Assembly: GCA_029261035.1 (NCBI GenBank)
Contig: JAJDCD010000010.1
Span: forward strand, 1-64,000
DNA length: 64,000 nt
From: Candidatus Omnitrophota bacterium
GTDB taxonomy: Bacteria; Omnitrophota; Omnitrophia; Omnitrophales; JACROU01
Direction of reading: 5' to 3'
Positions within the stretch are counted from its first letter, which is position 1, and each line of letters starts with the position of its first letter. Both the position numbers and the translations under genes were made by a program. Under the pieces are notes generated by a model. The model had not been told where the DNA came from. It saw only the letters and a list, made by a program, of their open reading frames with translations, and did not search any database. This document shows positions 14,956-64,000 of this stretch, one piece after another.

Positions 14956-15008
14956 AAGAACTCCTAACCAATTTATCTGAAACAACTTAAAAACAAAACC
15001 CTCTAAAG

Positions 15009-15050
15009 AGGCCCGGGCCTCTTTTTTTCGAAAAAAACAGGCCCGGGCCT
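15009..15050. repeat. 42-bp palindrome of palindromes between divergent genes
   Basis: Two perfect 12-bp palindromes aggcccgggcct (15009-15020 and 15039-15050) flank a perfect 16-bp palindrome of seven T, CG and seven A. The whole is self-complementary except for the C at each junction. It lies between the DUF423 gene (minus) and the methyltransferase gene (plus). Confidence 0.85.
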
Positions 15051-15052
15051 GT

Positions 15053-15078
15053 TTGATGGACTTGGGTGGTATTATACT
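15053..15078 (+). promoter_or_regulatory. Candidate promoter of the methyltransferase gene
   Basis: TATACT (15073-15078) is a good -10 element only seven bases before the ATG at 15085. A TTGATG (15053-15058) is upstream with a short 14-base spacer, so the -35 is poor. If this -10 is used, the mRNA would begin at or next to the start codon (leaderless). No Shine-Dalgarno is present. Confidence 0.35.
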
Positions 15079-15084
15079 GCAATC

Positions 15085-15786
15085 ATGGATATAACCCAAC
15101 GCTCTTTAGAGCCTGAACTTATGGATATTGAAACTCGCAGTGATGAGGAGACATTTGAAGCTTATCGTTTCCTTACTCGTGTTAACCGCTATTTATTTGC
15201 AAGCCGAGTCATTTTCCATCACCTCAAACAATGGTCCAAACAATGGCCTAAAGATAAAACCATTCGAATCTTGGATATTGCCTCAGGTGCTTGCGATATA
15301 CCTAAAGAAATTATTCGATGGGCTAAAAAGAAAAATTTTAAAGTTGAGTTAATCGCTCTTGATTTGAGTCAACAGGCATTAAGCTTTGGTCAACAAACCT
15401 ATAAAGAATACCCTGAAATAAAATTTATTCAGGCTAATTGTTTTCAAATCCCAATTAAAAAAGTGGATTATGTAATTTCTTCTGCTTTTTTTCATCATCT
15501 AGATAATCAAAGTATTATTCAGGCTCTTAAACATTTTAATACAATTGCTCAAAAAGGCCTTATTATCAGTGATCTCCAACGGAGCAAAAGAGCCTATTGC
15601 TGGATTCGCTTATTCTCCTTATTAACAAAAAATGAACTCGTTCGATACGATGGTCCTCTTTCGGTTTTAAAAGCTTTAAAATTAGAAGAAGCCAAAGACC
15701 TCGTTACACAATCTTCTTTAGATTATCTTCACGTAAGAACTCATTTTGGACATCGACTTTCTTTGGCAGGAGTAAAAAAGGAGTAA
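15085..15786 (+). CDS. Class I SAM-dependent methyltransferase, substrate unknown
   Basis: 233 residues and the only plus-strand gene in the window. Motif I is ILDIASGACDIP (62-73), a variant of the usual LDxGxGxG. Asp93 in IALDLS fits the acidic residue that binds the SAM ribose, and VISSAFFHHLD matches motif IV/V. The N-terminus (ELMDIE, FEAYRFLTRVNRYL) resembles small methyltransferases seen near lipid or polyketide pathways, but I cannot name the substrate. The start could be 15085 (no Shine-Dalgarno, possible leaderless message) or the in-frame ATG at 15121. The stop falls inside an 11-bp tandem repeat, followed closely by a terminator shared with clpB. Confidence 0.85.
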   Translation: MDITQRSLEPELMDIETRSDEETFEAYRFLTRVNRYLFASRVIFHHLKQWSKQWPKDKTIRILDIASGACDIPKEIIRWAKKKNFKVELIALDLSQQALSFGQQTYKEYPEIKFIQANCFQIPIKKVDYVISSAFFHHLDNQSIIQALKHFNTIAQKGLIISDLQRSKRAYCWIRLFSLLTKNELVRYDGPLSVLKALKLEEAKDLVTQSSLDYLHVRTHFGHRLSLAGVKKE

Positions 15787-15801
15787 AAAAGGAGTAAAAA
15801 A
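15769..15801 (+). repeat. 11-bp tandem repeat, three copies, across the methyltransferase stop codon
   Basis: Three exact copies of ggagtaaaaaa (15769-15779, 15780-15790, 15791-15801). The TAA stop at 15784-15786 lies in the middle copy. The period is not a multiple of three, so loss or gain of a unit would change the C-terminal residues. Confidence 0.85.
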
Positions 15802-15833
15802 GGGACAGTCCCCTTTGGGGACAGTCCCTTTTT
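15795..15833. terminator. Bidirectional terminator between the methyltransferase gene and clpB
   Basis: The core at 15802-15828 is two gggacagtccc arms around a CTTTG-like loop, with one central mismatch. Runs of A on the left and T on the right provide a U-tract for both converging genes. The same 27 bases occur again at 18639-18665. Confidence 0.85.
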
Positions 15834-18638: not shown

Positions 18639-18665
18639 GGGACAGTCCCCTTTGGGGACAGTCCC
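18639..18665. repeat. Second exact copy of the 27-bp palindrome
   Basis: Identical over 27 bases to 15802-15828: two gggacagtccc arms with a short loop. The two copies bracket clpB. Here it has no long T-tract directly after it on either strand, so it is a weaker terminator than the other copy. Confidence 0.85.
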
Positions 18666-18774: not shown

Positions 18775-18884
18775 ATCTGAATAAGTTAAAATTTGAAAGT
18801 AAAAATTAAAAAATAGGGTGCAAGTTCAAATATTTGAACTTGCTCATTAATTTTGACTTTTTCCTTTTAACTTTTAAACCTTTC

Positions 18885-19700
18885 TTATGCGGCTTGTGCG
18901 ACCTGTCTTGCTGCTAGTTCTTGTGATAACAGCTTATCAAGTAACTGTCGTACAGAAGCAACGTTGAAGAAGAACCGGTCTTCTTCACGGGCTAATCCGC
19001 GAGATACAAGCTCGTTAGCTACCGCTTCACCATAGCGTGCAATTTCACGGCCTGTTCGGAGAACCACAGGTTTAACCCAATCATAGCGGTCCAGAGCCTG
19101 TTTATCGTAAACCACGTGGTAAACTCCTTTAGCACCTGTTACTCGATCACTTAAGTCGGTTTCTTCATTTGAAACAACTGTCATTGCTTTATTTGTATAT
19201 TCTGGTTGTTGTCTCAAGTCGGTCACAATTCGGTTCAAGCTTAAACCTTGATCTGTGATCAAGATTACTTGCCCTCTAACACTCTCTGGAATAGAGATAG
19301 CTACATCTTCAGGAACATTAGCTATAACGAGTTGATGATTCTGGGTTCCAGAGAAGTAATTGATAAAGGCATCATCTTCATCTGGTGTTCCAATAAATGG
19401 CAAGTAAACTCCTGTGTTCCAATCTACAACCTGAACCGAAGGTGCTGGGGAAGCTCCAGAACCTACAATCATTTTATCCAAAGCTTCATTAAATCCAGTC
19501 GAAACGAGATCTGCCGCTGCTCGAACATCGCCCAACTGTGTTTGTAATTGTGTTAAAGCAAACTGCCCTTTTAAACCTTGTATAGAATCTAAAGCAGACA
19601 ACAATGCACTTTGTTGAGAATCTGTCAAAGGAGCTTTTGCTACAGGAACACCTAAACTCTCAGCTGTAATTTCTGGAACAATTTTTTCTTTAACAGGTTT
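18885..19700 (-). other. Giant protein: C-terminal alpha/beta domain
   Basis: About 270 residues after the last membrane helices. Alternating hydrophobic strands and helices (HQLVIANVP, RGQVILITDQG, KAMTVVSNEE, GVYHVVYDKQ) suggest a Rossmann-like or receiver-like fold. It ends in helices rich in Ala/Arg. The basic sequence right after the membrane segment (SKRRIDVKKW) places it in the cytoplasm by the positive-inside rule. I do not recognise the family. Confidence 0.6.
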
Positions 19701-22700
19701 TTCACCTAAAGAAGATCCATAAATATCTTTTTCTTTAAGCGTATACAATTGAGCTATGCGTAGTTTATCTGCCTTTGAAACTAAATTATAACGTTTTCTT
19801 GGTAAACCAAAACGTTGAACTGATTCACTTCTACCTGTCTTCTCAAAAACTTTTTTCAAGTATCCCGATTTGTCTCTTTTAGTAAAATCAGAATCCGTCC
19901 ATTTTTTGACATCAATTCTTCTTTTACTGATTTGAAAAACCGAAAGAATCACTGAGCCAGCACCGAACACAACATAACCCAAGACAGGAATCAACGTTAA
20001 TGTTGGCATAATTAAACTAACAGCTGCCAGGATAAGGCTGAACGAGCCTAATCCAAATAAAAGATGATACCCGTATTGCGTCATAAAGGCTTGCTGGCCT
20101 TGTCTGCGAGAGATTTCACCAAGCAATTGGATCAAATCATCGTTATAATGAACTCCTTCAAAATTTCGAAGGTACGTAATATAAAGAAGTGTTTGTTCTC
20201 TATCATTCAATGCAAAATTATTCTTACTTCCATAATTGACAATACGTTGAACAACTTCATCTCTCATACCTGAAGTCCAAGCCCCTCTTTCCTCTTCCTG
20301 TTGTCTTAACCAGTACATAAATTCTTTCATAGCACCTTGATAACGCGCTTCTTCGTAAGATTCCCCTCTTCCAAACGAAGCCATAAACCAAGCAATTAAA
20401 GGTCCAAAAATAAAGGAGTAAAGAATAATACCCCCAATAAAAATAAAGAGTGGGTCAATCAAACCAAGCATAACACCTGAAGCTATGATTAAACCAATAT
20501 AAAGAACATTAATCAGCTTCGCTTCACCCACTTCAAATTTATACGCATCCATCGGACTCAAACCTTTTTCCAACTGTTCTGCAACAGTCGCACTGGTAAT
20601 CCACTTAAAGCCGATACCATAAAATGCTGCATGAATCGTTTCTTTAACAAAGTCAATTGAGATACGAATATTAATCAAAAGAATCGAAGTTGAAACAAAC
20701 GTTTGGAATATAGAGTCCTTCACAATTTGTTTTAAATCTCGCCCTAACTTAAACGTATTAAAGAAAAACAAGGCTCCCAATATCCACAAAAGATACGGTT
20801 TTACAAATTGAGAAAATAAATCCATCATCACCACGAGGGATTCTGCCGATTGATACTGAGATAAAAATGTATTAAATTCTGTCACCCAAACATTAAGAAA
20901 ATTAATACTTTGAGAAGGGAGCGCTACATAAAAGACAAACAAAGCTCCTAAACCATAAAAAAGGTAGGATTTAAAACGATTAACATAATAATCTGGGTCT
21001 CCTAAACCTCTAAAGGTAAATTTTTCTACAATTTCATGTCTCCACCAAGTAACCCTATCGTGCTGCCCTAATCTATGTCCTATATGATACTCATTCCCTT
21101 CGTTGTCTGTAGCATAAAGACTAGACCAATTCAAAGGAACCCACCCCCACAACCCTTTACTTGGATGAACAATACTCACAGGCATCTGAGAAGACATCCC
21201 TTCCCAAATACGTGCCATTGCAGGTTTAATAATTTGAGGCACTGCGATCATACCGGCCATAATACTTCCAAAAAGCACATACCCAATATAACGCGCTTTA
21301 GCAATCAACAAACCTGGAATATTGGCAAACACCAAACCAAAAATCAGCCAGAGACCAAAGATTGATTCTCCCAAGAATCCATATAAAATGGTAGATAATT
21401 GAGGTGCAATTCCTCGAGGCAAATCACTCGGTTTTGCCAATCGTTCCCAAGCATCTTTAAATGTAAAAAGTCGAGGTTCTGCACGGAAAATACGGCCTAA
21501 ATGTAGGGCATGACTCATACGCCACAAAGTACCAACAAAACGATGCTCCTCAATTAATTGTGCTAAGTCACCTGTATCCCAACGAACCTTACGAGGCAAT
21601 GCAAAGAAATAACTATGCGGCAAAATCTCTAAAATAATATCTTTAAAATTAAACAGATCTATGCCTAAAATATGCATTAAGAAAGAAACATCTCCCAATT
21701 CTTCTTTTGTGAACCACTCTGACTCTGGTTTCGGTTCCCAAACAGCTCCATCATTTTGACGAGACCATAAATCTACATCTACCGGCTTCACCACACCTCG
21801 GTTAATAAAATCATTCTCTATTGCTCTTTCTTTTAAGATTTTACGCGCTTTAGAACCATCTACTTGAGCTTCACGGAATAAACGAAATGCCATTGGAATC
21901 ATGTAGTACTTACGAATATATTCTCTCAACTGTGGGTTTCTCATATAATCAACCCAACGTTTTCTCCAAAAAATACGTCCTCCCCCACGGAAACCTTCTT
22001 GAATATCATGACTAATAAAGTGTGCTGGAACCAACTCTTTAAAAATTACTTCTCCCATATAAAAAGGTGTGAAGACCATTTTTCCAAATGCAGGTGCTTT
22101 TGGTTCTTTTGGCGTACTTTGAATCCCTGTTTGAACCAATAACAAATGCCCTAATTGCCTCAATGCTTTCGATTCAAAACGAGAGTGGGTTGAAGTATGC
22201 GAATCTTCTTCTAATGGAGACGATTGATTATCATATGAAATTTGAGGCTGATGTACAGAAACTATATGTTTTGCCTTCATAGCAGCTATTGCATGCGCAT
22301 AAACTTCTTTAGCTGCTCCAAACGTATAAGGATTCTTATTATCCCCTTGTAATTTAAATTCTATTTTATGATCAGGTTCAATAGGTGTTCCGTATTGATC
22401 TTTAATTCGCTCACCATTAAAATTAAAGTAATCCAAGTCTGGCATTTCATATTCACTCTCTTCGCCCTTAACTTTATCTAAAGTTTGAATGTCATCTGAG
22501 GAGATCAATTCTTTTTTCACAATACGAATTTGGCCCTGATCATCTACTTCAATCGTATCAAACTGAATATTTCCATCATTATCAATATGAAGCCGAGGAT
22601 CATTTAAAACATCTTTTGAATTTAACATCCACCCTTCTTCATATTGACTTCCATCCCAATAGTAAATCTTACGAAGCGTTGATTCTCCTCGTTCATTTTC

Positions 22701-25700
22701 AAAAGGTTTGACATCAATGTCTTTTTTCAATAGATAACTTTTTTCACGGCCTGTTTTTCCAATATGCAATCCGGCAACATCCGCAAAAACACCTGTTCTG
22801 ACAAGTTCCGCTTCTTCCTCAGTGATATCCCCACTTTTTAACATTTCATCAATAAAGCTTGGGTCTTTAAAACCAAAATAACGATCAAATGGATTTCTTC
22901 GTTTATTCACTCCTGTAAAATAACCTCTCACAACACGTTGAACTTTGATTCCATCGAGAGTATCTGTTGCTGTCACCCACTGATCATTTTCATCGATTAA
23001 AATCTGGCCATGCTCTGAAGTGGTACTCGCATTCATGGAGAAGTCCGTCAATGTTCTTGCTAGAATAGGAACATCTGGGTCTTTTTGAGTCAATTGAAAA
23101 TCAGGGATTATCTTTTCTTTTCCACCCTGATCTTTTTTGAGTGTTCTAAAATCACTCACCTTTTCTAAGGTGACTATCTGATCAGGATCCGATATTAATT
23201 CAGCACCCTCATAAGATAAAGCTCCTGTCACCTCACCAACGGTATAACCGTCTCGACTATAAACCAACAATGCTTCACGGTAATCATCCGTCACCGCAAC
23301 ATGACTTGTTTGATTTTGAGCAAGTATATAATTACCATCACTCGTTGCATAATCTATGGAGTCTCTAGCCACATCCTCTTTGCTCTTCAAACCTTCATAG
23401 TCCACATCTAACTCAATAACAACTCCATCTTTGTCAAAAGTTAACTTACCGTTATTAACTTCAAAACCATCTTTTTGGTGAACCAAAATGCCCGAAACCA
23501 AATTGCCCCCTTCCATATAATAAACATTTTGATAAAACTGCTCTCCACGATCACCTTGAAGTTGGGTTACATCCACAGGACCTTTAATTAAGTAACTGTT
23601 TGCATTTGCATTGTAGTGAACCTCAGTAGCATGTTCTTCCATAGCTGCTTTTGCAATCGCATCCGCACCTTTAATCAAATATCCTTTTTGTTTTTTGAAG
23701 ACATTGGCCTCTCGCTCAATTTCATCCACAACAACAGCGGTACCTTGTTCTGCAGCTTTTAATCGGGCAGCATTCTGAATATCTTGTTTATTGGCAATGC
23801 GAACCCCTCGAATTGGGTCTGCTTCGATATTTTCTCTAATCGTAAAAGTTCCGTCCATTTCACGCTTAATCGCACCTTGGTTACTGGCAAGACCATGAAC
23901 TTTTAATATAACTGTTTGTCCAGGCTGTATTTCATCTAAGGTAATATTTCTACTCACCCTTCTTTTTTTGGATCCTTTTTTGCTCAACCTTGAGAAAAAC
24001 CCTTCTTGAGAGAGAAAAGAATATTTTCCATATTCTAAAGCTTCTCCGAAAAGTTGAATCCTTCCATAATCACTATCGATTAAATCTCCTTCAACCAAAA
24101 TCTGTTTTCCATCTTTTGTTGCCATGTCTCCACGAGAAATATCAATTTCAGGCTCTTCATAGAGAACCGCTCTTTTTTCTTTTTTCAAAGCCTTTCCATG
24201 TTTCTTTAGTGGCTGTTCCATAACCACAAAAGTTTTAGCACGTTTTACTGATTTTTTTGTTTGCCTGTTATTTTCTGTTACAGTAGCAGATCTACGAGTT
24301 AAAACACCAAAGCCAGGACGACTCATAGAAAAAACAGATTCTTCAGATTTTGCACGATAAAGAATCTCTTTCTTATTCAACTTATATTTTTTTCTAGGAA
24401 TAACAACGCTACCTGTTGCGTCTAGTAAATTTCCTTTTTCATCTAAGTAATACACTTTTTTTACAACTTCATTTGTATTTGGATCTAATCGTTTTAAGAT
24501 CACTTCCTGCTCAAAAACAAGGTCTGCTGTTAATGGCATTCTTCGGCCTTGATTATCATAAACAACTTCGTCTTTACGCGTTCTGAGCGTACCATCATCA
24601 TTCCACCATACCCATTGATCTTTTCTTAATATTGGCTTAGAGCTCGATGGTTTTGAACCTGGCTCATAAACATCTCCCTTAAACACAGGGTATCTTCTTT
24701 CAATCATTTGACCTGGGTTTTTAGGATCTTCTGCCATACCCACAATAAAACGTTCCGTTTTAACTTGCTGAACATCCCACTCTTGCTTACTATTATCTGG
24801 ACGTGTGATTTCTAGCGCATTTTGCTGTTCAATATAAAAACCTTCATCGTAAGCACCAAAAAGAGCCGCATCAATATCTCGATTATCTGTTTTAATTCGT
24901 TTATCTTCTCCATAAGCCGTATAGGTTCTTGGATGCGTAACACCATATTCTAAAAATTCAAATGCGTTCTGTAACTGCCCCCATTTCACACCAAATTTTT
25001 CCAAGTGTTCTTGAACATAAATAATACGATCAGCACCAAAACGATCTCTCAATCGCTTAATTTCTTTAATTTCTGCTTTAAGAACATTTGGCTTACTCGT
25101 TCTAGAAACAAGCAATAGTTTTAAATGATCATTCGGATCCAGGTCTTCATGATCAATTACTTTTCTATCTTTTGTTTTAGGATCATAAACCTTATAAAAA
25201 GCAAGCTGAGCTAATTTAGAAACTTTATCTACAGGAACATAAGGTTGAAACAGAATGTGAAGGTCTGAAATCAAGTCCTCTCTTGCTAAAGTTAAAGCTT
25301 CATCTGCTTCTTCTTGAATCTCTTCTATTTGAGCTTGCATATCTTCTAACGAAATAATCCTATCTTCAAATCTTGATTTGGTTTCTGTCACTTTCCTTCT
25401 TTTATCAGAATCGATTGTTTGTCTTCTTTTGACTAACTCCAACTTCGCTGCTTCTACGTTTTTTTGCAATTGGCGCACAATATCTTCTTGCACTGCATCA
25501 TCCATGTTAATAAATCGATCTTTAACGTCAGGAATCAAACTATCTACATAATCAATCCAAAAGGCTCTTGTCTTCTCATCGTAAGTACGCAGGTTCACTG
25601 TGTTCAAGAAACTGGTTTTACTGTGAACCATCGCACTTTGCGCTTCTGATGGAGATTGCATCAAAATAGGAGTTGCCATTGCAGCGCTCCATCTCATTGA

Positions 25701-28700
25701 TGCTCTATTGCTCTTCAACGCATACTCATCATAATCCAGTTTTTGTTTGCGATAAAAAATATTCATCAGAGTAAACATCATAATCTGTCTAAAAGGACGG
25801 TTAATATAGACATAGAAAAAGGAAGTCGCCCAAACAATCATTCCAGCAGACCAATTCGCATCCATACCCACAATCATATAAAAGTAAGCAGGAGCTGTTA
25901 AAAGAATATTATCCAAAAGATTTGAGAATGTGGTTACAACATCTCTTTTGGCTTCAAAATATGCTATCTCTTTCGTTTCTGTAAAATAAGCCGTTGGAAT
26001 CCAAGGAATATATCGAATAACAGCAACAACAAACTTTAAAGCACTGAATGCCAAGAACCCAGCAACAAAGGAGGCAAAAATGGCATAGCCCCAGAAATTA
26101 AAAGCGGTCATGTTAACCACAGCAGCAAGCATCGGTTCTAGGTGAAACAAAGTATATAAACCACCCATCAAAGGAACAATAACAAGTGGACTGAGCCAAA
26201 CCAAGAAACTCTTAACATTTCCAATTTTTATGGATTTTGAAGTTGGTTCTCTTTCAGGGATTTGAGGAAGATCTTCTTCAGCCACATCACCGTGAGGTAA
26301 AGACTGACCCACACCCAAACTAGCACCTTCCGTCAAATCCTTTTGAGTTTGAGCAACAAGTTCCGGACGTCCCAAACTAGAACCACTCCCTGTCTCAGGA
26401 CCACCGGCACTCCCACTAGTTGCAGTCGACCCTGTATCATCTTTTTTCTTTTTCGTACCAAAAATTAGAAGGCTAAATAAAGCCCAAAGAGCTGCAAAAG
26501 CACCTAAAATCATTCCCAATCCGCTCCAGAAGTTTTCTTTAATCCAACTTCTCCACTCGTCGGCTCGCGTTTCTCCTTGATCTACTGTTGGTAAACGCTT
26601 TTTAATTTCTTCCAATCCTCTTTCAGCGGCTAATTGGTCAATTTTTTCTTTTACCTGTGTTCGAATTGCTCCGTCCAAAGCATCTCTTAAGTACTCTGGA
26701 GAATAACCCATAATTTCTCTTAAGTTTATTTTCTGATTCAAGTCTACTTGCGCTTCGTCTAGAAGAATCAACAACATTTGGTCATCTAATTTACCCTTTG
26801 TTGGTGTCACCTCTTCCTGAATCCGCTGAGCTCTATCGACTAATAAAATAAAGTTCACCACATCCAAATTACGTTTTTGAATTTGATCTAAAATCTGCCC
26901 TGCAGCTCGCTGCCTAGCAAGTATGATCGTTTCACCATCTTGAACCTGAACAAGCGTAGACATAGTTAAACCTTCTAAACGACTTGTTATAATACGAATA
27001 TCTCTTTCTCTATTCATATCCAAGACAGGAAGCTCAACTGGAGCTGTAATACTTGTTTTCAAAACCAAACCTAATCGACTGAGCAAGAATTCATTCACTT
27101 TAGATTTATTACTTCCACTCAATGTAATCCCGAGGCCGCCGTTGCTTGTAGACGCTTCCATCACTTCGTTCACATTCTTAAGCAAACTAACCAAAATAGC
27201 AATATCCCCTGTTTGAACTTCTGCCTGCGTTCGAGATTTATCTACTTCAAGACCCGTTTCCAATAATCGATAAACCACATGATCTAAAGCATTGGTTACA
27301 ACAGGGATTTGACCTTGTTGAATCGCTTGATTTAAGAAAATTTTAGCACGCTCTTCCAAAGCCTCTTCTCGAGCTTCGGCTGTTCTACCAGGAACCGGCC
27401 CTAAATCTTTTAGGATTTCTTTTACGTATTCTTTTAAAACAAAGAAACTGCGAAACTGTTCCAAAGTCCAGCCATCATTGTCTTTTTGAGTCACATAAAA
27501 AGCAATTTGTCCCTTTTCTTTCTCTGTTAAATCACTCAATGTTCTAGGAGTCTGGCCATCAGGTACATTTCGATTTACAATTTCAAGGTAGATATTTCCA
27601 ATTTGAATTCGATCAATATAAGAAATATTAATCGCATCTCTAGGGGTAAAACCATTGGTCAATACTTGAGAGTATAAAAACCCTAATACCTTACTACCAA
27701 TTTCCGCTTCTGCTTGACCCAGGTCCAACTGCTCACGAATAGTGTCAATCTCTGCTTTTCTCTCAACTGAAGTTCCTGCTGCTGCATATTCTGTATTTAA
27801 TTCTCCATTTAAGTTGATCAACTCTGCTCGAATGTTAGCTTCGATTTGAGTTTGAAGCACACGGCTATCTCTTTCATTTTGCTCTTTAATTTTATACTCC
27901 GTTAACCGTTCTAAACGATTTGCTTTTTCTTGATCTCTCAGTTCTTTACTCTCTCTCAATGCTTTTCGGTAATTTTCAGCATTCTGCTCGTGCGCTGCTT
28001 CCGCTCTACCCATACCCGTTCTGTCTCTTAAAATTCGGGCCTCAATGCGATCCAAAGACCTCTGTAACTGAGCAGAATCAATACTGCCGTCTCGTTCAAA
28101 CATTTGTCGTGCTAAAAAGAATTCTAAAGTGCGTCGAATACCGCCCACTTCTTCAATAATCGTTTCTTGTTCTCTACGCACTTGCATATTGTAGTAAGCA
28201 TGATCTCCACGCTCTTCAACCAAATTTGAATCTGTCACTTTCTTTGCATACTCAAATAAGTAATGTTGATAGTATTCTGCACGAGTAACAGGGGTATCAC
28301 TTCCAGGAATAACAAAGTACTCTGATTTATCTAGAGCACCCCCAAAAGTATTAAATTCTGTTGTTAATTTTCTATAAATCACACCATAGAGATTTACAGT
28401 GTCATTAATATCTCTTAAGGTAATATCTCCTTTAAGACGAGATTCAAAATTTCCACTCATCTGAAAATCTTGAACACCTTTTTGCCAATAAAACTCAGAC
28501 CAACGAGACCAGTCCCCTTCATAGAAATCATTAATCTGTCCTCCAATTTGAGCAAAATCCAAAAAGTAAACACGGCTACTATTGGCCCGTAAATTTCTGT
28601 TGGTTAATTCTTGAATCTTACGCACCGCATTAAAGTAAACTTGAATTTTCTTTCGAACATAGTCTCTCTTGATATTTAATTCTTGCTGATAGCGTTGATT

Positions 28701-31700: not shown

Positions 31701-34700
31701 ATTACCGGTGTAACTATCATCAATAAGAAAACGGATTTGCTCTGCTCTGTGTCTGGATTTGACTAACCCAGCAACAATACGGTCAAAAGTGTATGAGGTT
31801 AAGAATCCACTATGATTCGGATTTCCAATATAATCAAAAGTGAATGTAGCATCATTAGGGTCTGCTAGATTACGTAAACGGAATAACCTTTCAGCATCTG
31901 CTTTATTGTTTCCCAAAGCTCTAAGAATATGATTTTGCACATTTTTATCTGTAATATTGTTTCGTTTCATAAACTCGTGCCAGTTAATCAATATTCCTAA
32001 ATCAGAAGGGTTCAACACATCTAATGGATCAGCAGCAGTTCGTCCCAAAAGGTTCTGAACCTCTACTTTAATATCCATTACAGCCCTAAACCGAGCTTGT
32101 AATGAAGATGCAATTTTATCTCCAAAACTATTCGTCGATCTAAAATTCGTTGTCCTAAAAGTTTCTATTTCTCGATTGACAGCTGCCAGCTGAGTATCAT
32201 ACGTCGTTCTATCAATGGCTTTAGTACGATAGTTCGCTTCAATGGTTACTTTTCGATCTTGCAATACTTTCAACCGGGTACTTAAAGTATTAAATTGATC
32301 TACCATTTCTTCATTTTCAATTGCATACAATACCCAATAACTCAACGAACCATAACGTAAACCATTTTTAATACTTGCTGACAATGTTCTGATTCTCTGA
32401 TTAACATCTCCCAACTCAACTCTAAGACGATCTCTTTCGGTTGCATCGGAATCACTGGCTAAAGCTGCAATCTGAGCTTCAAGCATCTTTTTCATCTCAA
32501 CATAGGTTTGCAGCTCAACAGAACCTGAATACTCTACTAAGTCTTGAGTGCTAATTCGGAAATCATTGTAAAATCGATTAAACTCAAATTGAGGATCTAA
32601 CACTCGATTCATGGTATGGATTAAATTAGAAAATGCAGCAAAGTCATTCGTTTGACCCGCTGTTACAGTCAAATTCGTATTTCTTCTTAAAAATAACCAA
32701 GCTGTTAAATTACCTCTACTCTGGTTATCTCCAATCATTTGCATCGCATTTTCACTACTCACACGAGTCAAAACACTAATATCATCTCTAATCAAATAAC
32801 GTTCTCTTTGTAGTTCATCTGGACTTAAAGAGGCATATGACAATGAAGAGAAAGAGCTATTCAATCGAGGTATCCATGTATTTAAGAAGTATCGATATGT
32901 TCTCATTCGTTCCGTTCTTTCTGTTTCATCTGCAGGGTCTTGAGATGGAACTCCCGCAAAGAGATGGCGAATGTAAGGACGATCTGTTGTTATATTTGCG
33001 CGGACGGATGTTAAGATTTCTTCTAAGATTCTTGTTTTTTCTGCTTGGTCTGTAATTCCCTGGCGAATCACTCTGTCGTGATAGGCACGATAAGCTTGGT
33101 TACCAAAGTAATCCAAAAGACCTAATTTTCTAAAATCCACTTTTTTATCATTAGCCGTATTCACTGCCTTTTCACTCAAACGGTTTCTTTGAGCATACTG
33201 ACTCAAACTAGCCCAATCTCTTTCCCAAGAAAATCCCCAAGATCCACGACCTGAAACAGCTTGGTCTTGTACAATTTCATTCACTTGTGGAGCCAAAGCA
33301 ATCATCATCTGAAGCTTCACATCCGTTTGCTCTCCTCTAGGAATATTATGTCTCATAGAGTAGGTATCTAACATCACAACCCAATCTTGCAAATTAAAAA
33401 CATCGCTGGAATTAAAAGCAGTAATTCCAAATGCAGCTCTGTTTAATTCTGCTGCACGTGTTTCTAACATCGTTTTATGAGAAGTAAGTGTTTGCAAACT
33501 TGGAGTTAGCTCAAAGTGAACCGCTTGATATTCTGACTTTGGCTGTCTTCTTGCCAAAGGCCCTGCGGCCTGTGTATTCAACGCAGTTTCTTGCTCGGTA
33601 GAAATTACTGCAGGTCGAGCTGAACGCAATAGCTGATTAACCCTCTCAACAGCATCTTCTTTTTCCTTTTGCCACTCTGCTTGTTTATTTGGTTCCTTTG
33701 GCTGAAGTTCTTTTGTTAATTCTAATTTTAAACGCTCTAAAGATGCCAATACAGGATCCGACAACCTCAAAGAAGCTAACTCTGCTACAGGAATATTTAA
33801 TTCCCTTAATTGATCTTCTGTCATTTGAGCTTCTTTAATCAGATCTATAAGAACAAGACCTTCGATTAAACGAGATCTCTCAGAGTCCACAAAACCTAAA
33901 TGTTGTAATACGCTTTTTAGCTGCCCCAACAAGTCCATCATTCTTTGAGCGCGTCTCAATTTAGTATTAATTGTTTCATACTGAGACTGAACTTCTCTTA
34001 ATTGTTCTCGGTTGGTACTTTGTTCGACTTGTAATGCTCGTTGCCTTGTTTGTTTTACCCTTTTCTCTTGTAAGGCTGCTTGTAACGCTGCTCTGTTTCG
34101 TTCCAGCTCAGCGCGCACTTCTTCAACTTCTCTAGGCGCCCCTGCTGGCAACGTCAAAACCTGAACTCCAGGTCTTCCTGGAGCTGGTAATTGTGACGTT
34201 CTTGCAGGCTGTGATGTTGGTTGAGTTGTTGGTCTAGATGCTGGACGACTTGCAGGTGCAGCAGGTCGAGTAATAGACGAAAACCAACGTGTTATATCGT
34301 CATTTTCATAACCCCAATGTTTCAAATGAAGAATGAGTCGTTGTTTCGAAGCAGCGTAGTCAATCAAGGCATTTCCTCGACGAGTACGTGCATTCAACCA
34401 CTCTTCTCTTCTTTGGTTAACCGGAGTAAAGGACTCTCCGCTAATAAAACGCTGCCTTGCACTTTGATAAGCTGTTTGAGTTCTTGATACATCAAATACC
34501 GCATTTGCTGCTGTTCTAAAAGTTCTATTGTAATCCAGTAACAGTTCTTCCATTTTATAAACAACTTCAATCATTCTTGCTTTCTGAGTTTCGCTCAATC
34601 GAGATGCTTGGATACGCGCAATAATCACACGAGCATCGTCTTGTCCACCCGCATAAATATTCTGTCTTATTTCAGCAAAAGCATTTGGAAGATAACTGAC

Positions 34701-49700: not shown

Positions 49701-52700
49701 TGATACTAAATCCTGCGCTCTGTCCAAAAGATCTCCAAAGGCTTCATCCCCAATGCGTGTTTCATCCATATTCCATTGCTGTATAGTCCTCTTGCTTGGA
49801 TCTCTAGGAACAAAAAAGTTAGCTGTCTGCACAAACTCAGCAGAAGACGCTATATTTCTAAAATTTGACCCAACGGTCTGACCCCTAAGAGGAATATCAC
49901 GAAGCAACTCTTCTCGATCGTTGTAATAAGGCTCTACTTCCTCCACATTTAAATCTTGAGGCCTCTTTGCCGTAAGCTCTTCTAACTCTCTTAACCTTTC
50001 TTCAAATTGAGCAACCTGAGAATCTTTATAAGCAATAGCGCCTTTCATATCAGCTATCACTTTCTGTCGAGCAAATCGATCTATATCTTCCAAATCCGGC
50101 TGTGGGTCACCCTCTAAAATGGACAGAGCTCTTTCAACCTCAGCTGCTTGACTTACTAATTTTTCTTTAAGAGCTGTATATTCATTAGAAACATCCTCAT
50201 TAATTTGAGGAAGAGTGGATGTATCTACACTAGAAACCTCTAAGTCGTCGGAACGCCCCCAACCTTCAGAAATAAACGTTTTAATAGAAACAGGAGTTAA
50301 ACTTGGAGCTTCATTACCCAAAGCCAATAATGCTGCACTCAAACGACCTTGAAGTTTAAGGTAGTAGGTCTTTTCCTTTTCTTCTAGATCCAATTCCAAA
50401 GCTTCAATCCTTGCATCAAGAGCTGCCAGTCGAGGTTGATTGTCTTCTTTTAACTGATTTAACTGCTCTTTTTGCTCACGCTTTTCATCCGCAGACAAAC
50501 CTTCACCATTAAGATAATCGAGGATTTCTTTTTTAGAAGCCGAGAGTTTCTCTTTCGCTTGTTTAACCACTTCAATTACTTCTGCTTGCCCTTCCAAACC
50601 CTCAAGGATTCCAGCATCCAAAGCAATAAATTGATTTAATCTCTCTTCTTTCCACGCAGCTGGATATAAACCAGAAAGCATTCGAGCAATCTTAACAAGC
50701 TTTTCTCTAACAGATGTTGCACTGGATAAAACGTCTCTATTATTTCGACTTAGAGAAGAAACTATGTCTGAGTTTGTAGCAACGTCTTCAAATTCATCCG
50801 GAAGCTGGATAGGTAAGCGATTCTCAAAAACATCTCCCAATACACTTTCTTGTTCTTGTAGCAACTGACGTGTTTTCATCAAAACTTCTAAAGATATCTT
50901 GTCAATTCCATCTAAGGATTTTTCTAAAGGATCTATCTTTTGAAAAACGCTTCCATTGATACGTTTAATATCTCTGCTTTCTTTGCGAATAAACACTCTA
51001 GCTTCTCCAGCCAATTTTTCTAGATCAATTCCAGAAAAAGCTCGAGACAATCTACGACTAAGTCCTTTTAGCTTTAATGGCTCAAAATCTTTATCCTGAC
51101 TCCACTCTTCGTTAATTTCGTCAACTACCTTGCTATGCCTAGCTTCTAATTCCGTATTCGCTCTACCAATCTCTTCTTTTACAAGGTCAAATAAATTAGC
51201 ATCATAAACACCCAATGAACTAATATCAATTTTAGGAGATCCTGGAAGCTTTAGATCTGTAACGTATTTTACTGTAAAGTCAAACTTAGCCTTTTTATCC
51301 CTAATATCATCAAGCTGAACTGAATAAGTCTCTCGTTTCAAATCTAGCTGAGCCATCATTAACTGCTGTTGAGTTCGAATTAATTGACGCACAAAATCAA
51401 GCTTTAATTGAGAAACACTCACACCACCGATTTCGGCTGATTCGTAATCTTCTTTGCTTCCCAACAAATTCAAAACACCATCTAACTTTTGTTCAAAGGC
51501 AGTCCAAAGCTGTCCTGCAGATTCAATTCGTGATCTTTGTTGATCAATATCTTCTGTTGTGCTTTGAGTCCCCAGCTGTGTTGTCATCAAACCATCCACA
51601 CTTGCCATTTCGGATTGAATCAAATCAAAAGCATGAGTGACTTGAACTTCAATAAATGTTTTTTGGAAATTATCAACGGCTTTTTCAATCATCGCTGGGA
51701 CAGCAGCACGAATCGCAGCTAACGTTTGCGTTTTCTCGTCCCCATCCTGCATACCTGTTTCTATTGGTGCAATAATAGAATTATTAATAATGGTTTCGAT
51801 TTCACTTCTTTTTTGCTCAACTAAACTTATCTGAACCTGATCTAATTTTTCTATTTTTTCAATAGAAATAGTCCCCAAACTCTTTGCATCAGTCACACCG
51901 TCTTCAAGGGCGCCCTTAACAGCTTTTGCAATTCTTTCCGCATCCCCTTCAGCAGATTTTTCCAAAGCCCCTGTTAAACCCGCTAACAAACTTTGAAGGT
52001 CCATCGCTGGCGCTGATTGCGCTGATTGCGTCGATTTATCTCCGACATCAGAACCCAAAACTTCATCCACCGCAGCTGTGGCAACCTGCTCATCGGTAGT
52101 TGCCGCTGTTGCCAATTCAATGGCAGTGTCTAGCTCTAATATTTTGGAATTCAATATATCTGCTTTGCTTGAAATTTCTGCAGCCGCAGAAGAAGAGACC
52201 AACTCTAACGCCTCTTTTACAACTGGGTTATCATCTTCTTGAATACGTTGGATACCCGTCTTTGCTTCTTCCACATCAAAAGGCCTGTAATCATTATTAA
52301 GTTCATCCGCAGCTTGTTTCTGCAGATCTACATCTGTCTCAATCAAAGCTTGATCTGCTTTATCAATAAAACCCTGTAGCTTTTCTAACATTTCTTTTTG
52401 AAGTTCTTTAATTGCAGCCGTCTTTTCTTCTATCGTCAGCTTCGCTTTATTTCGATCTTCAATAGTAGAATCCAAAGAACCCAAAACTCCATCCAGGCGA
52501 TCCATACTCTCTTTTACTTCTGAAATAGCCGTATCAGCCACCGGAGATAAAGCTGCTTTTACATCTGCATCAGGATCATCTGCTAAATCTCGAACTGCTG
52601 CTTTGTAAGCTTCCATTTCTTCTGTAATTTCTGCAGAGCCTTGACGAACCTCCCCTTGCTGCACTTGTTGCTCATCTAAGTCTGTTTCTGTAAGCGCTGA

Positions 52701-55700
52701 TTCAACCCGATCAATTAACGTATCGATTTTCGCAATCATTTGTCTTTGAAGCTCAGCGATTTGACGCGTTTTTTCTTGAATAGTTGCTTGCTGCTCTTCT
52801 TTCTTCTTCACTTCTTCATTTGCTTTATTAGAAGTTTCAATTAATTGAGCAATTTGATCCATAGATTCGCCGTAATGATTAAAATGCTGGGTCAAACGTT
52901 CATTTGCAGTATCAATATAAGATGCTACTTCTATCTTATCTACATTCTCCGCACGATTTTGTTGTTCAAATGGCAGCTGCGCCTCAACCGCTTGACGACC
53001 TTCCGCCAATTCTTGGTGAGTCTTTATAATTGTTGCTTTCTTCTCTTCACTTTCTGACAATCCGTTTTTAATCACTACTTCAAAAAATAGCTTTGAATAA
53101 TCTGACGATTTTAAATGAATTTGTTGAAGTATTTTTGCCTCTTCAGAAATTAATTCCTTAATAAGAGTCAAATTGTTAAAACCTTCTCTCCAAGAAACCA
53201 GCTTTTCTTTTAATTCCGGGATATCTTTGTCCTTTGATACTCTTTCTACTGCTTGCAAAGAACCCGTCACATTCAACTTCAAACTTAACAAACTTATCCC
53301 ACGCTCTTTGACCAATTCAACTAATCGCTCTCCAACATAAGCATAAGCAGCACTATCTCTGCCTTGTTGTTCCGCTTGATCATAGGTGTTATTAACCGCT
53401 TCTTGTAACTGTTCTATAGCTTCTGCGTAAGTAGTGTATGCCGCTTCTGCATTTTTATATTCCTCTAACTGTTTCAAATCTTCGCTAACAGCATCCAAAC
53501 CTAAATCTGATGCCAAATCCGCCACTCCCGTTTGAGCATCGTCAAAAGACGCTCTCTTTTCAGTAATCAAATCATTTAAACGTGTTTGTTCTGCAGCCAA
53601 CTTATCTTGAACTTCTTGTTCATTTTCAACACGTTCTAACTCAGGGGTTTTTGCTGATTCCAAAAGCCCTTCAACACTTCCTTCTAATTGCTCTAATCTT
53701 TCTAAAACATTTTTCACTTCTGTTTTTGCTTGTTCTAAGCCTTTTTCTGTCTTTTTGCTTAAAGCAATACGAATAAGTCCAGAAGCCTCGGAAACAGCAT
53801 CGTTAATTTCTTTTTCCAAAGCATGGGTACGCTCTCCAATTTTTCGAACAAGCGTATCAACATCATTTAGAAAAGCTACTTCGCTTTCATTGAGCTGTTC
53901 AATAATAGAAGCGTAGAACTCACTTGCCTCTGTCAAACGTGAAGCAAACTCCCTTTCAACCTCATTTTTTCTTTCGAGAACAGACGTATATTCTGATGGG
54001 TTTTCTTTAATTGTTTCGAAAGATGAATCAATAACAGCTAAATCAATAGGAGCAACTCGACCCCGCACTTCAGAATGAGTTTTTTGAGCCTCTTCCAATA
54101 AAGCCCTGGCTTCAGCATACCCTTCTCGTGTTCCCAACTCGATTTGCTCTACCGCTTGGTTTCTAACACGATCTGTAGCAGAAACCAGAATTTCAACCTG
54201 TTCCGCTCTAAAAGATTCTAACGCTTCCAAAGCTTTTTCACTTAACTGCTGCTGCTTCTCCGTCGCCACTTCCGCACTACCAAGAACATCTTCTAACTGA
54301 TCAACTCTAGATTGAGTCTCTTCAGCACGGTATTCCAAAGAATCATTAACATCCCCTAAAATAGCGTTAATACGTTCATTGTCTTCTGGTGCATCATCCG
54401 ACAGTTCCACTCGCTCTAATTTTAACTTATTATTAATTCGCACTATATCAGCAAATTGCTTACCTGCTTTTGTTAACTCCTTAGCTTCAATTTCTGCGAA
54501 GGTGTCATCAATCAAGACATCCAATTCATCCCACTCGGATTCAATACGTTCTCTTTGAGATCGAATTTCGGTAAAATAATATTCTTCAACACCCACACCT
54601 TTATCTTTTAAGAGCTTTCTAAGGTTTCTCATCGCTTCAATAACTTCTAATCTTCTCTCTACATAGCCTGTATTCAATTCTTGTTCTGCAACATCATATT
54701 CTTCGGCCAAATAAAGTTTATAATCCTTCTCTACCCCAACTCGGTCGGGTATCGGACCTTCCTCTCCTTCAACCAATCCTATTTCTTTTTCTAGCTCAAA
54801 CAAATCAGAGCTAATGGACTTCCATACACTTTCTTGCTGAGTCGCTTCTAAATCTTCTTTTGCTTCTCGAATAGAACGTTCGATTCGATTCAGAAACTCC
54901 AGTAACTGATCCCGTTTAGCTACATGTTTAACTGCATACGCATCTTTGATCTTAGTTTTAACGGCAGTTGCTTCAGGATAAAATTCCGCAAGAGCTATAG
55001 AAACTTCTCCAAGAGCTGCCGTAATACCTTCATTACCATTTAAAATTCTCTCAACATCTGCTTCTTTATTATATTTACGCACTAACTCTTCAAACTCAGG
55101 TGCCAATAAAACACGATGAGGAATTCTTCCGGAAGCCGCTCTTTTTTCAATTTGACCCACACGCACCATCGATTGATGCCATGCATTGTAACTTGGGAAT
55201 TTTTTCCTCTGTTTTGCAAGACCCAACTCATGAACTCGAGTCTTTTCTTCCCGAATCTCTTCAGCCAAACCACGAAAACGCTTAACAATTCCATCTCTTT
55301 GTTCAATGTAAGGAACTAAACCTTCTTTAAGAATTTCGAGCCAACCTTTTAACTCTTCGAACTGCTGCGTCACCGCTTGACGTCTTAATTCTGTTTGAGA
55401 AATGCGCTCTCCCACTTGTGACTGAACTTCAAGAATACCACTTGTAACTTGATCTAGAAGCTCTCCTTCAGGCAATTCATTACGAGCACCTCGCAATAAA
55501 GTCAAAATACCTCTATACTCTCCTTCACCTACCAAAGCAGGAACATCTGTTACTGGATGAAAACGATAACCCGCAACGGTATACAAACGGCCCCGCGGTC
55601 CTCTCTCAATCTCCAACGTTTTTTTATTTGTTTGCTCGTCCTTACTCCATACATTTTTGGAACGTCGCTCATCTTCTAACTGCACTTCTACCGCCTTCAA

Positions 55701-58700
55701 CGTAGCTTCTAATCGTTCCACATCTTGCAAACCTTCTAACTCTTGCAAAGACTGTTCCACACCTTCAAACACACCCTCGCTTTGAGCTGCTGCATTTGCA
55801 GTCTCGAGCTCAATTGCTTTAACACCCAAAGCATATATCTCTGGGATTTCTTGATCTAAGATCTGAAGACCTTCTTGCCTCATGGCTAATAACTTTTCAC
55901 TGTATTCCGCAATCAAAGAACGCAACTCTTCATTTTGTTCTAAAATTCTACGATCATACACCTTGGTATCTTCAGCTTTGCTTTTAAATAGGTCTGCTGT
56001 AATTCCTTCCCTTGAAACTCGAGAAGATTCCGATAACTTTTTAAGTTGTGTTGTAGGGTCTGATACAAAGGCATGCATTAAATCTTTAGCATAACGTCTT
56101 TTGTCATTCAAAGCATCCATATATCTTTCATAACTTGAATAGGTGCTTGGAGAATTAAAAAACTGGTGAGAATTTCCTCGAGTTAACTGTTCTTGCCTTG
56201 CCCCTTCAACGATACCAGGGGTTTCTATAGGTGTTTTTTGAGGCAATGTTTCCCGAGCTTGCTTTAATCTTTTTTCGTAAATTGCTTTTTGCTCGTCAAA
56301 AAGTTCTTTTGCTTTTCTTTTAGAATCTTCTACCTCTTCATAAACAGAATCTCGTTTTTTCTGAACTGCTGAACGAGCTTCTTGTAAGCTTTTCTTTAAA
56401 TCAACCATAGGTTCTGACAATACTTCAAGAAAACTGAGAACACTTTCTACGAAAGAGTCCGAAATCACAACTGGAGGAGAACGTTCTGAAGCGGACTCAA
56501 CAATCCCTTCAAGTCTCTCAATTAACCCTGGTATCACATCGGTAGAAACTTCATCCGCATTACGAATAGCTGCAGCCAACTCACTTAAAATGCCGTCCAA
56601 CTGCTGCACACTTTGTGTCTCTAAAGCTTCTTTTCGAGAAAGATCTATCCCTTGCTCGGTTTCATTTATATTAAGTACAATATTCTTCTGATCTTGATGA
56701 ATTCGATCAATTTGATCTAAAAACAACATAAGCTCTTCTGCTTTTTTTAATGCCGGCTGATACTCTTCTTTTATAAGCTCATCAATTCCCTGAATCGCAC
56801 CACTCAAAGCGTCTTCAAATTTACGATCAACCACACCGTTAATAGCTTGAATTGTTTGCAACTTTCCTTCAGCCTTAGCTTGATCCCCCTTATATTCAAA
56901 ATCCAAAATATCTTTTGCACGGGTCCAATTCTTACGAGCTTCCTCTAAATCTTCTATAGAACTCACTTCTAAAATACTTGTCATTAAACGGGTCGCTTCC
57001 CCAATTTTTTTCCTAGCTTCAAAAACAGCGTCATTTCCTTCTTGAGCCAATCTCTCTACCTCTACTTCTCGCACCTGTCTTTCTATAAGCATTTGATTAA
57101 AATCAGCCATTCGGTCCAAAAGATTCTTGAAACGGCCTTGAACTGCAAACGCCCCTTCAACCATCTCACGCACTTCACTAATCACATCTCCATAGCTATC
57201 TAACTCTGACTGGGTCACATTTTGTCTAATTTGGATTAAATTTTCTTCAACTTCTCGGGAAGAAACTAACATTTGTTCTTTTAGCTGAATATGTTGAAGT
57301 CTTGCAGCGCTTAAACTAAGTTGAGGATTTTGAATCATTCTCTCAAGATCCCCAACAACAATTTCAAAATGAGAAGGTTCTTCATCTTCTTCCAAATCTT
57401 GCTTAGGATCTAATTTTTCTTCAGCAATTGCAGCAATACGACTAACATAAACTTCAATACTTCCTTTAATTTCAGCAACATGTTGTTTTCTTGTGATTAA
57501 GGTCAACTTATCATCAATCGCGTCATCTAAAAGATCTACTTCCTGTTTTAACTCTTTAATTGCATTATATTTACTCTGTAAATCCAACTTCAATACTTGA
57601 GCGGTATCTAATTTCTCTGTTTCTGCTTCGAATGCTGCCAAAATTCCTTCTAATAAACGAAAACGTTCATTCGCTTCCTTAAAATGGCTTCTTAGCTCTT
57701 TAATATCCTCTGTTTGCTTAGCTTCATCACTAATTGCTCTCGCTTCTTCTGTTAATGCGCGCGCTTCTACAACTTTAGCTTCTAAACGCTCAACAATTTC
57801 TGCTTGATCCTTACCCTCTGTTTTATTAATAGCAATCGCACTCATAAGTTCCTTATACACAGTGCTACTTTTCTCGGATAAAGAAGTTAACGTTTTTTGC
57901 AATTCAGCAATACGATCTTGATCTACACCATCAATCAAACCCGCAGCATCCAAAATAATGTCTAATTCGTTCATTTCTATCGTTACAATACTTAAATCTC
58001 TTTTTGCATCCGTCTCAATTGCATCCAAAGATGGAATATCTTTTTTTCGTTTTGCTCGACTCAACATCCGTTCTAACTCATCAATTTGAAGCTCCAAACG
58101 GCCTTGATGCGTTTCAAAATTAGCCTCCAAGGCTTCTAATCCTAAATTTTTCTTTTCTTCCAAGACTTTACGTCTTGCTTTAACTTGACCTTCCATCTCT
58201 TTAAAAGCTTGGTCTATACTTTCAACCTTTTTTTCCAGCCCTTCAATCTTGGTTGACATTAACGCTCTTACTTGTTCAACATCATCCCCTGCTTCATCTC
58301 TAAAGTTTTCAGGAATACTATCACTATCTGTCAACCTCTCCGCAATCTCTCGTAAATCATCTAATTCTGCACGAACACCTTCTAACTCTTCTTGTTTCTC
58401 AATCAAGACTTCTTCCATTTCTTTCAAACGCCCCAAAGAACGGGCTTGAGCAATTGCCTCTCCAATACCTTGAACTTGACCCTCCAACTCTGCTAAAACC
58501 AAATTCAAATCTCCAAACATTGAATCTAAAGCTGCTGAACGCTCAGCAACAAAGAGACGAGCCTCCTCTTTTTTTCTAGCTTGCTCAACTTTATCTGCTG
58601 CTTCAGTAATTGTTTCTTGCAATGATGGGATGCGACCTTTCTGAACCCGATAAGCTTCCATCACTTCTTCTACAGCCGAAACAACCTCTCCTTTTGCTGT

Positions 58701-61700
58701 CTTAAAAGCAGAAATAACGTCATTCAAAATAGGCTCAAGTTGATCTGAAGGAATTGTCTTTATAACTGAAATCTGTTGAGTGTATTTATCTTCTGTGTAA
58801 TTCGCATCTACACTTTCCAACCCCTCTCTTAAAGGCGCTACTGTAGCATCATTAAAGTTTATTGCAATTTCAAGGCGCGATGCTTGCGCGGCTAAATCAT
58901 CCGTCTGAGTTACAGCATCCAACTTTTCTTTCAGAACGTTCGTTTTAACATCAAGTTCTTTAGAAGCTGCAACAATTCCCTCTTGCTTAAGTTCTAAATC
59001 TAAAATTACTTTGGAGCGCAACAAACCTAATCCCGTTTTAATAATATTTCCTTTAAGCTCTTGAATCTGCTTTCCTAAGCCCCGCAATTTTTCAATTACA
59101 GAAACAAATTCAGAACTTTCTGTAATTTGAGTTGATAAAGAAGGGTCTGCAGACAAAGCTTTTTCAAAAAGCTTTTTCTCTTGTACATTTTTATCCAAAC
59201 GAACAAAGCTGTCATAAGCAACCCGCAAATAGCCTAAACGATCTTTAGGCTTAATATTGTTCTCACTCACAATATCTAAAGCTTGAGTCACAGCTTTATA
59301 ACTTGCATTCATTTCTTTTAAAATGCTTCCTATCTCACTCGATGCCTTATTTACTTTTTCTACTTCATCAGATATTCTTTCCGCAAGAAAGTCTGCATCT
59401 AACTCTTCTATTACTTTATTCACATCTGAATTTCTACTATCAATCTCACCCATTGCTGCTACTGCTCCAGCTTTTAAATCAGAAACTTCCGTACGAAACC
59501 CCATGAAAAGAGCGTCAATTTGATCTCTGGCTAAGTCTATTGCTTCAGGATAAGAAGCCCCCGCTTCACTCCACTTAAGATCAACCTGATCCACACCGGC
59601 CAAAACACCGTTTGCCAAATCTAAAAAGTCATCCAGTTCTGTTTTAGCCTTTTTCCTCGTTTCTAAATCGTTATTCGCATCCTCAACTTCTATCAACCGG
59701 CCTTCAATAGGGGTCAAATGTGCATTTTCAAAATCAAACAAGCTAATAAAAGGTTCTCTTTTCTTCAAACTCGTAATCTGTTCTTGAGCCTCTTGAACCA
59801 AAACATCTTTTTTAGCTAACTGAATACTTCTTTGAACATCTTCAACCTCTTGATATTTTACTTGAATCAACGCTTCTACTTCATCGCGAGCTTCAGCAAT
59901 TAACCTATTAATCGGCTCTTCTATTTGAGCAACAACATCATTAGCCGCAACCGTTGTTGATAACACAGTAATTTCATATGCAATCTGATCTAAATCCAAT
60001 TCTCTTAGCTCTGTTTCTAGCGCTTCTAAAGCTCCAATTGCTTGCTGAATTGAAGGCTCATTAGCTGCAACAACTACATCTGTAACTACAATACCTTCAA
60101 GTTGAGTGATCATCTCTGCTTTTTGAGCAGCAATCGCTTCTTTTGCCAAATCTAGTTGAGCATCAACAACCCTTTGAGTTTCTTTTTGTTTTCTTTCTTC
60201 GGTTTCTATTTGTCTTAAAAGATCTCCATGTTGTTCCGCCAATTTTAATTGTGTGAATTTTCCGGCAAGCTTTGCTTGAGCTTTTAAATTTATATCTGCG
60301 GGTTCAGTGTCTAACAAAATAGAATCAAACTTAGGGTCTAAAACTAAACCGGTTCCAATATAACCTTGAACAGGTTGAAATTGAGTTGTTGTCAAACTAT
60401 CAAAAGACTCTCTTACAATCCCAATATCCGCTCCACCCAGAAGCTCCTGCTCCAAACGGTTCATTGTCTGACTAAGAGTATCTAATACAGTAAGTTGAGT
60501 TGCTAAGGTTGAAGACACCGCTTCTTCGAATTCACGCATCAGCGAATCTGAATCCTGAATTTCAGGTATTTCATTTTCATCCAATAGAGCCCCATTTAAA
60601 TCCACATAGTACCGCACCAAATCTCCAGCAACCTCCTCTTCCAACACTCTAAGAGCCCCTAAAATTGCAGAACCAGCAACAACACTCTCTTCATCATAAA
60701 CCCAAGCATCTCTAGATTTAGGCTCTAAAACATCCATCAGAGCACCCACAGCGGCCACCTCTCCTGATTCTCCAATTTGTATTGCTGTATCTCGAGCCGC
60801 CTCCCAATACTCTGCACCCCATTGAACTTCCAACTGATCAATTAATTGCGCCGTTTCATCCGAAAGAACTTCTTCAGGTTCTTGCGTTGCAGCATCTCGC
60901 TCTCTTTCCAAACGCTTTTTAGAGGCTTCCGTTGCCGCTCTCACAGTGCCGAGTTTTACCATATTCGCTCTTAACAAATCTTTCGCGGTATCCAAATCAC
61001 CTTCCCAACGAACCAGCTTTTTCAATTCTCCAACACCTATATCCACAGCGTCATCAACAACCATCTCAATAGCAGTGTCAATACCCATATTAGGCTCATA
61101 AGAAATCTGACCTAATGTAGGAATTAAATTATTTTTAGCTAATCTACCTGCCTCCACTACAACATCGTATCGCTTTGCTCTTTGAGTTATCTCATCATCT
61201 TGAGCTTGAGCTAGTTTTCCTAAATCAACCATACGTCTTGTGGCTTGACCCAACATAAAATTATAAACTTTAGAAACAAGCCCTTCGAGATTAAAATCCC
61301 CTTGATTCTCCTGTTTCATTTGTCTCGTTATAGCCTGAAGAGCCTCTTCGTCAATCTGGTACTTCCCTCTTACCACGTACGTTCTAGCTTCGACAATCAT
61401 TGCGTTAGCCTTACTTAACGATTCGTCAGTAGCCCTTTCAATTTGTGTGTCAATGAGATCTAAATCCAAACGATTAAAAGCACTCACCCCATCCAATTCA
61501 GGACGTTCTCCAATAGGTCCCTCCCAAGCAAATTGCGCATCAAACTCTTCTCTCAATTTTCGAATCCATGTCAGAGCATTTCGGGCAACTTTTAATTTTT
61601 GCATTCTCTTTTCAAATTCGGCTTGAACGGCTTTTTGAACGCCAGGATTATTCTCAACAATACCTTCGTAAGAAGTAAAAAATGTTTCCGCCTCTTCCAT

Positions 61701-64000: not shown

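Follow-up and report, generated by a model that had tools for sequence, protein, structure and literature searches.

The window, by which we mean the whole 64,000-base stretch of DNA analysed here, cuts through one real bacterial gene whose product belongs to the giant proteins of Omnitrophota. This gene (gene A) lies on the reverse strand at contig positions 18885-67481, measures 48.6 kb from ATG to stop, and encodes a predicted product of 16,198 amino acids with a mass of 1.83 MDa and a pI of 5.2. From its sequence we propose that this product would be exported by the Sec pathway, span the envelope and process glycans at the outer membrane, a reading to which we assign a probability of about one half. 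The window comprises bases 1-64000 of a 207,495-bp contig, with window coordinates equal to contig coordinates, and the genome is a 2.70 Mb draft in 26 contigs (94.8% complete, 1.9% contaminated). The features discussed below are as follows.

18820..18843, reverse strand: terminator-like hairpin, 10 bp, 42 bases past the gene A stop (consensus match)
18885..64000, reverse strand: visible part of gene A, the rest of the gene lying beyond the window
20082..22874, reverse strand: conserved C-terminal module with membrane helices, residues 14870-15800 (homology to other giants)
25863..26531, reverse strand: membrane-helix cluster 2, residues 13651-13873 (hydropathy only)
34272..35414, reverse strand: TolC-like outer membrane efflux (OEP) domain, residues 10690-11070 (PF02321, E 3.9e-8)
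41094..42464, reverse strand: circularly permuted beta-1,2-glucanase-clan (GH-S-like) domain, residues 8340-8796 (sequence and model)
43689..44387, reverse strand: membrane-helix cluster 1, six hydrophobic segments, residues 7699-7931 (hydropathy only)
44412..63998, reverse strand: visible part of an alpha-prone rod, residues 1162-7690 (helix propensity, periodicity, pI)
65802..67481 of the contig, outside the window, reverse strand: ATG, signal-peptide-like segment (residues 1-38) and head domain (residues ~60-560)

Within the window, the frame of gene A (18888-63998, reverse strand) runs for 15,037 codons without a stop and is still open at the last base, exactly as the first-pass annotation had claimed. 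Base composition predicts approximately 843 stops over this length (log10 P of zero = -377), and each of the other five frames contains between 852 and 1573 stops over the whole gene. In-frame codon usage correlates with that of neighbouring ORFs at r 0.93-0.96 in every full 2000-codon block of gene A, with lower correlations in the remaining two frames of the same strand. Tandem Repeats Finder detected no tandem repeats inside the gene, and a protein-level comparison run in pieces found only three internal duplications, all of them weak. The annotation had also described a single gene of more than 45 kb that leaves the window, and had taken the GTG at 63917 as merely the first start-like codon in view; both statements hold. 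The contig continues to the right, where it had proposed to look for the true start, and the frame runs on to position 67484 with its first ATG at 67481, 3.5 kb past the window. Approximately 290 bp upstream of the gene lies a sigma-70-like site with an extended -10, of a kind no commoner here than in shuffled sequence. Together with the hairpin directly after the stop, this site suggests that gene A may form its own transcription unit. No RNA families were found in the window with Rfam.

Giant genes of Omnitrophota are already known. ORFs above 20 kb are common in the phylum (Seymour et al. 2023, PMC10066038), so that the description of such genes as extremely rare in the first-pass annotation is overstated for this group. 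Its pointer to Omnitrophota is borne out by the head domain, for which 76 of 80 named relatives carry the names Omnitrophota, Omnitrophica or Omnitrophus. The giant of Ca. Velamenicoccus archaeovorus has 39,678 amino acids (PMC10066038), and lengths of up to 85,800 are cited in PMC12057145 from a preprint (West-Roberts et al. 2023); the product of gene A falls far below both. PMC10066038 characterises these giants as poorly conserved and sparsely annotated with domains, considers their functions hard to assess, and suspects surface or symbiotic roles. The product of gene A (hereafter A) resembles these proteins in its phylum, its single ORF of more than 20 kb, its several membrane helices and its few annotated domains. 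It departs from that description in that its head domain is conserved, a homologue from another family is colinear with it, and TolC-like and permuted glucanase-clan domains are identified. The adhesion domains reported in those giants (discoidin, laminin-G and dockerin) were not found in A.

A begins MYIIQKYKKTIKTICSVIAFTFIVTTVSWVGSENVLAQ, and residues 1-38 are judged by inspection of the sequence to resemble a signal peptide; similar starts are seen in its paralogues and relatives. The N-terminal head domain that follows is present in 170 of 384 genomes of the phylum, including all 47 genomes of the order. Among 29 relatives examined it lies near the start of the ORF, nearly always after a hydrophobic segment. 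Its best named relative is on a contig of Ca. Omnitrophus fodinae, and by this domain A's genome groups with relatives bearing Omnitroph- names. A profile search of A's own genome finds the domain in 45 ORFs of 503-16,199 codons, which together amount to ~140,000 codons or ~15.5% of genome bases, these being open-frame lengths and hence slightly high. The longest ORF in the order to begin with the head domain has 23,964 codons (G025), a 35,113-codon ORF in G018 having been left out as mostly N. Two further head-domain ORFs lie on A's contig, at 2-2197 (the left edge of the window) and at 165184-172092.

By sequence, the head domain reaches no Pfam cut-off and has no relatives in the PDB. PF04187 (ChaN/Tiki) scores 14.3 bits against it, under the cut-off of 27.7, and is matched below cut-off by four of 19 head-domain members (best E 0.0012). 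An AlphaFold model of the domain has a mean pLDDT of 83, and Foldseek on this model alone gave a weak match (EreC, E 0.07). The top five VIA matches all belong to one superfamily, TIKI/EreA/ChaN: HopBA1 (Z 9.9), ChaN (8.9), EreC (8.8 and 8.6) and BcR135 (8.0), with the next row at 6.8. The predicted core fold is thus like that of EreC, ChaN and HopBA1, and the conserved motifs HIQDAH, VEG and TGGFHT are reminiscent of the active-site motifs of the superfamily. A large helical insertion (residues ~175-470) and its place at the N-terminal end of large exported proteins set the domain apart from known members. We consider it likely that the head domain is TIKI/EreA/ChaN-like.

The enzyme domain near the middle of A is matched by PF10091 (E 3.6e-17) and DUF3131 (E 8.8e-11) in adjacent stretches, and by cyclic glucan synthases with an E value of 7.5e-21. 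Its model aligns with 8wy1 over 260 residues at 3.0 A (VIA Z 21.6). Against 8wy1, 8rf9, 8rf0, 8xuj and 4gl3 (8rf9 and 8rf0 being cyclic glucan synthases), query residues ~150-284 align with the C-terminal part of the reference and ~287-570 with the N-terminal part. This swapped order indicates a circular permutation. The permuted order is common to homologues in G053, G063, G093, G108 and G129; stand-alone relatives of ~700 amino acids in the phylum mostly have the ordinary, unpermuted order. Such stand-alone unpermuted proteins occur in most genomes of the order, with up to several per genome.

The SGL clan of beta-1,2-glucanases comprises GH144, GH162 and GH192-194, and GH189 is the cyclisation domain of cyclic beta-1,2-glucan synthases (PMC12102758, PMC10834661). 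The domain in A is like these enzymes in sequence, in its predicted (alpha/alpha)6 fold, and in its general acid and VDNG Asp motifs. It is unlike them in being permuted, in having Val in place of the nucleophile, and in sitting within a chain of 16,198 residues that lacks a GT84 or GH94 part. Residues E8688, D8611 and E8753 are kept in A, and E8688 (YTEIRP) and D8611 (VDNG) are invariant among seven homologues. E8688 would fit the general acid of the clan, its equivalence to E1356 of TiCGS and E221 of EeSGL1 being set by motif and not taken from a printed alignment, and D8611 would fit the Asp that is essential in EeSGL1. The GH189 nucleophile (E1442 in TiCGS) aligns with V8354, a position occupied by P, V, A or S in homologues, and GH189 transglycosylase membership was rejected because this Glu is missing. 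With the general acid apparently kept and the GH189 nucleophile missing, the domain probably works by hydrolysis, not as a cyclising transglycosylase. By analogy with its relatives, the substrate may be a beta-1,2-glucan-like polysaccharide.

Further along the chain, PF02321 matches A in two stretches with 33.8 bits against a cut-off of 22. Two OEP stretches within 381 residues recall the TolC protomer; unlike TolC and related OEP factors, the unit in A is part of a 1.83-MDa chain. TolC-like domains also occur in the giants of G053, G063 and G032, all of which have the same N-terminal head domain. No separate efflux operon or partner pump was found beside gene A in the stretch read. Extra TolC-like repeats that had been noted by eye near residues 9013, 9248 and 10345 were unsupported by Pfam or by custom-built HMMs, and were discarded.

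Much of the remaining length of A is an acidic, alpha-prone rod of ~7,000 residues (~600-7690, pI 4.74), with strong 3.5/3.6-residue periodicity in most blocks beyond residue ~2500 and no Pfam families. The 'coding-like helical sequence' of the first-pass annotation fits residues ~600-7700. Hydropathy predicts three clusters of membrane helices. The conserved C-terminal module was detected by profile in 21 of 384 genomes, several of these matches being short stretches with modest scores, and has no PDB relative (by profile) and no NCBIfam or Pfam family. Many of the ORFs that contain it run to several thousand codons (G025, 23,964; G129, 13,898; G047, 13,446; G063, 11,305; G006, 9,449). A contains one cysteine in 16,198 residues, inside the signal peptide, against ~190 expected at the ~1.2% of the contig's cytosolic ORFs. 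The product of the neighbouring giant gene B has two in 21,275 residues, the G025 giant none in 23,964 and the G032 giant two in 11,896; the giants of G053 (20 cysteines) and G063 (28) are less extreme. From general knowledge, this depletion in A fits an exported protein.

An independently assembled genome from another family (G053) contains a giant ORF, at least 10,168 codons long, colinear with A. Residues 17-535 of A correspond to 43-552 of this homologue, 8340-8796 to 3076-3518, 10893-10994 to 5065-5167, 11579-11721 to 5543-5676, 13244-13394 to 6923-7057, 14099-14207 to 7735-7849 and, in pieces, 14878-15787 to 8163-9092. The span between the glucanase domain and the final match covers ~7,000 residues in A and ~5,600 in G053, and the rod ahead of the glucanase domain is ~5,300 residues longer in A. 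A peptidoglycan-binding domain lies behind the glucanase domain in both G053 and G063, with an additional M15 peptidase in G063 and SecA-like domains in G053. Few relatives of A share more than the head domain. In G041 and G027 the head domain is on a separate ORF beside the giant ORF, so that linkage of all modules in one chain is not obligatory, and the module order is altered in G041. The G063 giant (11,305 codons) is 50-85% identical to the N-terminal half of the G053 giant, with similarity largely gone past residue ~4330, a pattern that suggests module swapping in giant genes. Near its end the G063 giant has a pyruvate phosphate dikinase-like domain.

In the mechanism we propose, the N-terminal signal peptide would take the chain across the inner membrane, and the cysteine-free mature chain would need no disulfides during export. 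The membrane-helix clusters predicted by hydropathy may serve as inner-membrane anchors. By homology, the TolC-like domain would put part of A in or at the outer membrane, such that the envelope is spanned; a single TolC-like domain is no proof of outer-membrane insertion. The acidic helical rod would then act as a spacer, and the glucanase-clan domain would hydrolyse a beta-1,2-glucan-like polysaccharide. The head domain may be a second hydrolase or a haem- or metal-binding head, common to dozens of large exported proteins of the same cell. Least certain is the overall role, in which polysaccharide might be processed or moved at the outer membrane. The envelope-spanning part of this reading is suggested by the signal peptide, the membrane helices, the TolC-like domain and peptidoglycan binding in relatives, with the C-terminal membrane module common to other giant ORFs also counted in its favour; the glycan-processing part is suggested by the glucanase-clan domain. 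It had been suggested beforehand that such giants attack or build cell envelopes. The signal peptide, membrane helices, TolC-like domain and the peptidoglycan-binding domain of two homologues support the envelope location, and the glucanase-clan domain fits both attack and building. Only tentatively do we suggest that a whole trans-envelope machine (exported head, helical spacer, glycan cutter, TolC-like outer-membrane unit and inner-membrane anchors) is carried on one polypeptide, colinear across Omnitrophota families, its head domain being the one found at the front of dozens of other large exported proteins in this cell.

Several other explanations were weighed. A could be displayed outward as a contact or predation weapon, gripping a cell that serves as prey or host and cutting through that cell's wall and surface glycans. 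This has been proposed for Ca. Velamenicoccus archaeovorus, where peptides of the giant are up three-fold when cells are attached (PMC10066038). The G063 homologue, with its M15 peptidase and peptidoglycan-binding domain, would suit such a role, as would the long array of 71-residue repeats in the giant encoded upstream, of a kind used by adhesins. However, adhesin domains were looked for in A and none were found, and the membrane helices and TolC-like domain suggest that much of A remains in its own envelope. We regard outward display as possible if doubtful; attack on other cells is a plausible role for A. Conversely, A might help to build the cell's own envelope as a scaffold in the periplasm, setting the distance between the membranes and trimming or exporting glucans of the cell itself. 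Among solved structures, the closest relatives of the enzyme domain include cyclic beta-1,2-glucan synthases, and a scaffold across the envelope would be consistent with the TolC-like domain and the inner-membrane anchors. No glucan synthase part (GT84/GH94) was found in A, however, and with so little shared beyond the head domain A is unusually variable for a housekeeping part; we regard this account as unlikely.

The chain could also be translated whole and then cut into separate exported and membrane proteins. The modules have stand-alone counterparts (~700 amino acids for the glucanase, ~450-550 for the TolC-like domain), and the head domain has its own ORF in G041 and G027. Yet neither a protease domain nor a repeated cleavage motif was found, and order and spacing past residue 8800 are kept in G053; we consider such processing improbable. 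The first-pass annotation had named a misjoin or collapsed repeat as what would refute the gene, and the genome is indeed a draft in 26 contigs. The absence of tandem or misjoin-prone repeats and the uniform in-frame codon usage speak against an artefact, and a colinear giant in another family excludes misassembly of A. We rejected this explanation and give it almost no weight. Sec export into an envelope-spanning position, with glycan processing at the outer membrane, is the reading we prefer.

In the literature searched, which excluded the West-Roberts et al. 2023 preprint, we found no earlier description of the head-domain family, the fused TolC-like unit, the permuted glucanase or the colinear homologue. 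Set against the 'poorly conserved' giants of PMC10066038, A offers a head domain shared across the phylum, modules in an order that another family retains, and an enzyme domain whose catalytic residues can be identified. These features provide a marker for finding giants and their paralogues, together with a testable enzyme activity and a testable envelope location.

The neighbouring DNA contains further large genes. Giant gene B lies directly upstream of A (contig 68177-132004, reverse strand) and encodes 21,275 amino acids (2.34 MDa) with a signal-like start, ~70 tandem repeats of 71 residues at residues ~1000-6050, and more helical sequence thereafter. Together, A and B make up 4.2% of the genome. 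A tandem-repeat adhesin was rejected for A, which has no tandem repeats, and fits B instead. By eye, the 71-residue repeats of B resemble RHS/YD-type repeats. Just upstream of B, a signal-bearing ORF of 683 codons (contig 132010-134058, reverse strand) has weak RHS-repeat matches. Paired palindromes, GGGACAGTCCC, lie between genes at window positions 5291-5314, 15802-15828 and 18639-18665 and at contig positions 68148-68170. With six exact matches in the window and none expected by chance, this sequence is an interspersed intergenic repeat. Finally, a nearly cysteine-free ORF of at least 1983 codons (contig 201546-207494, reverse strand) runs off the right end of the contig.
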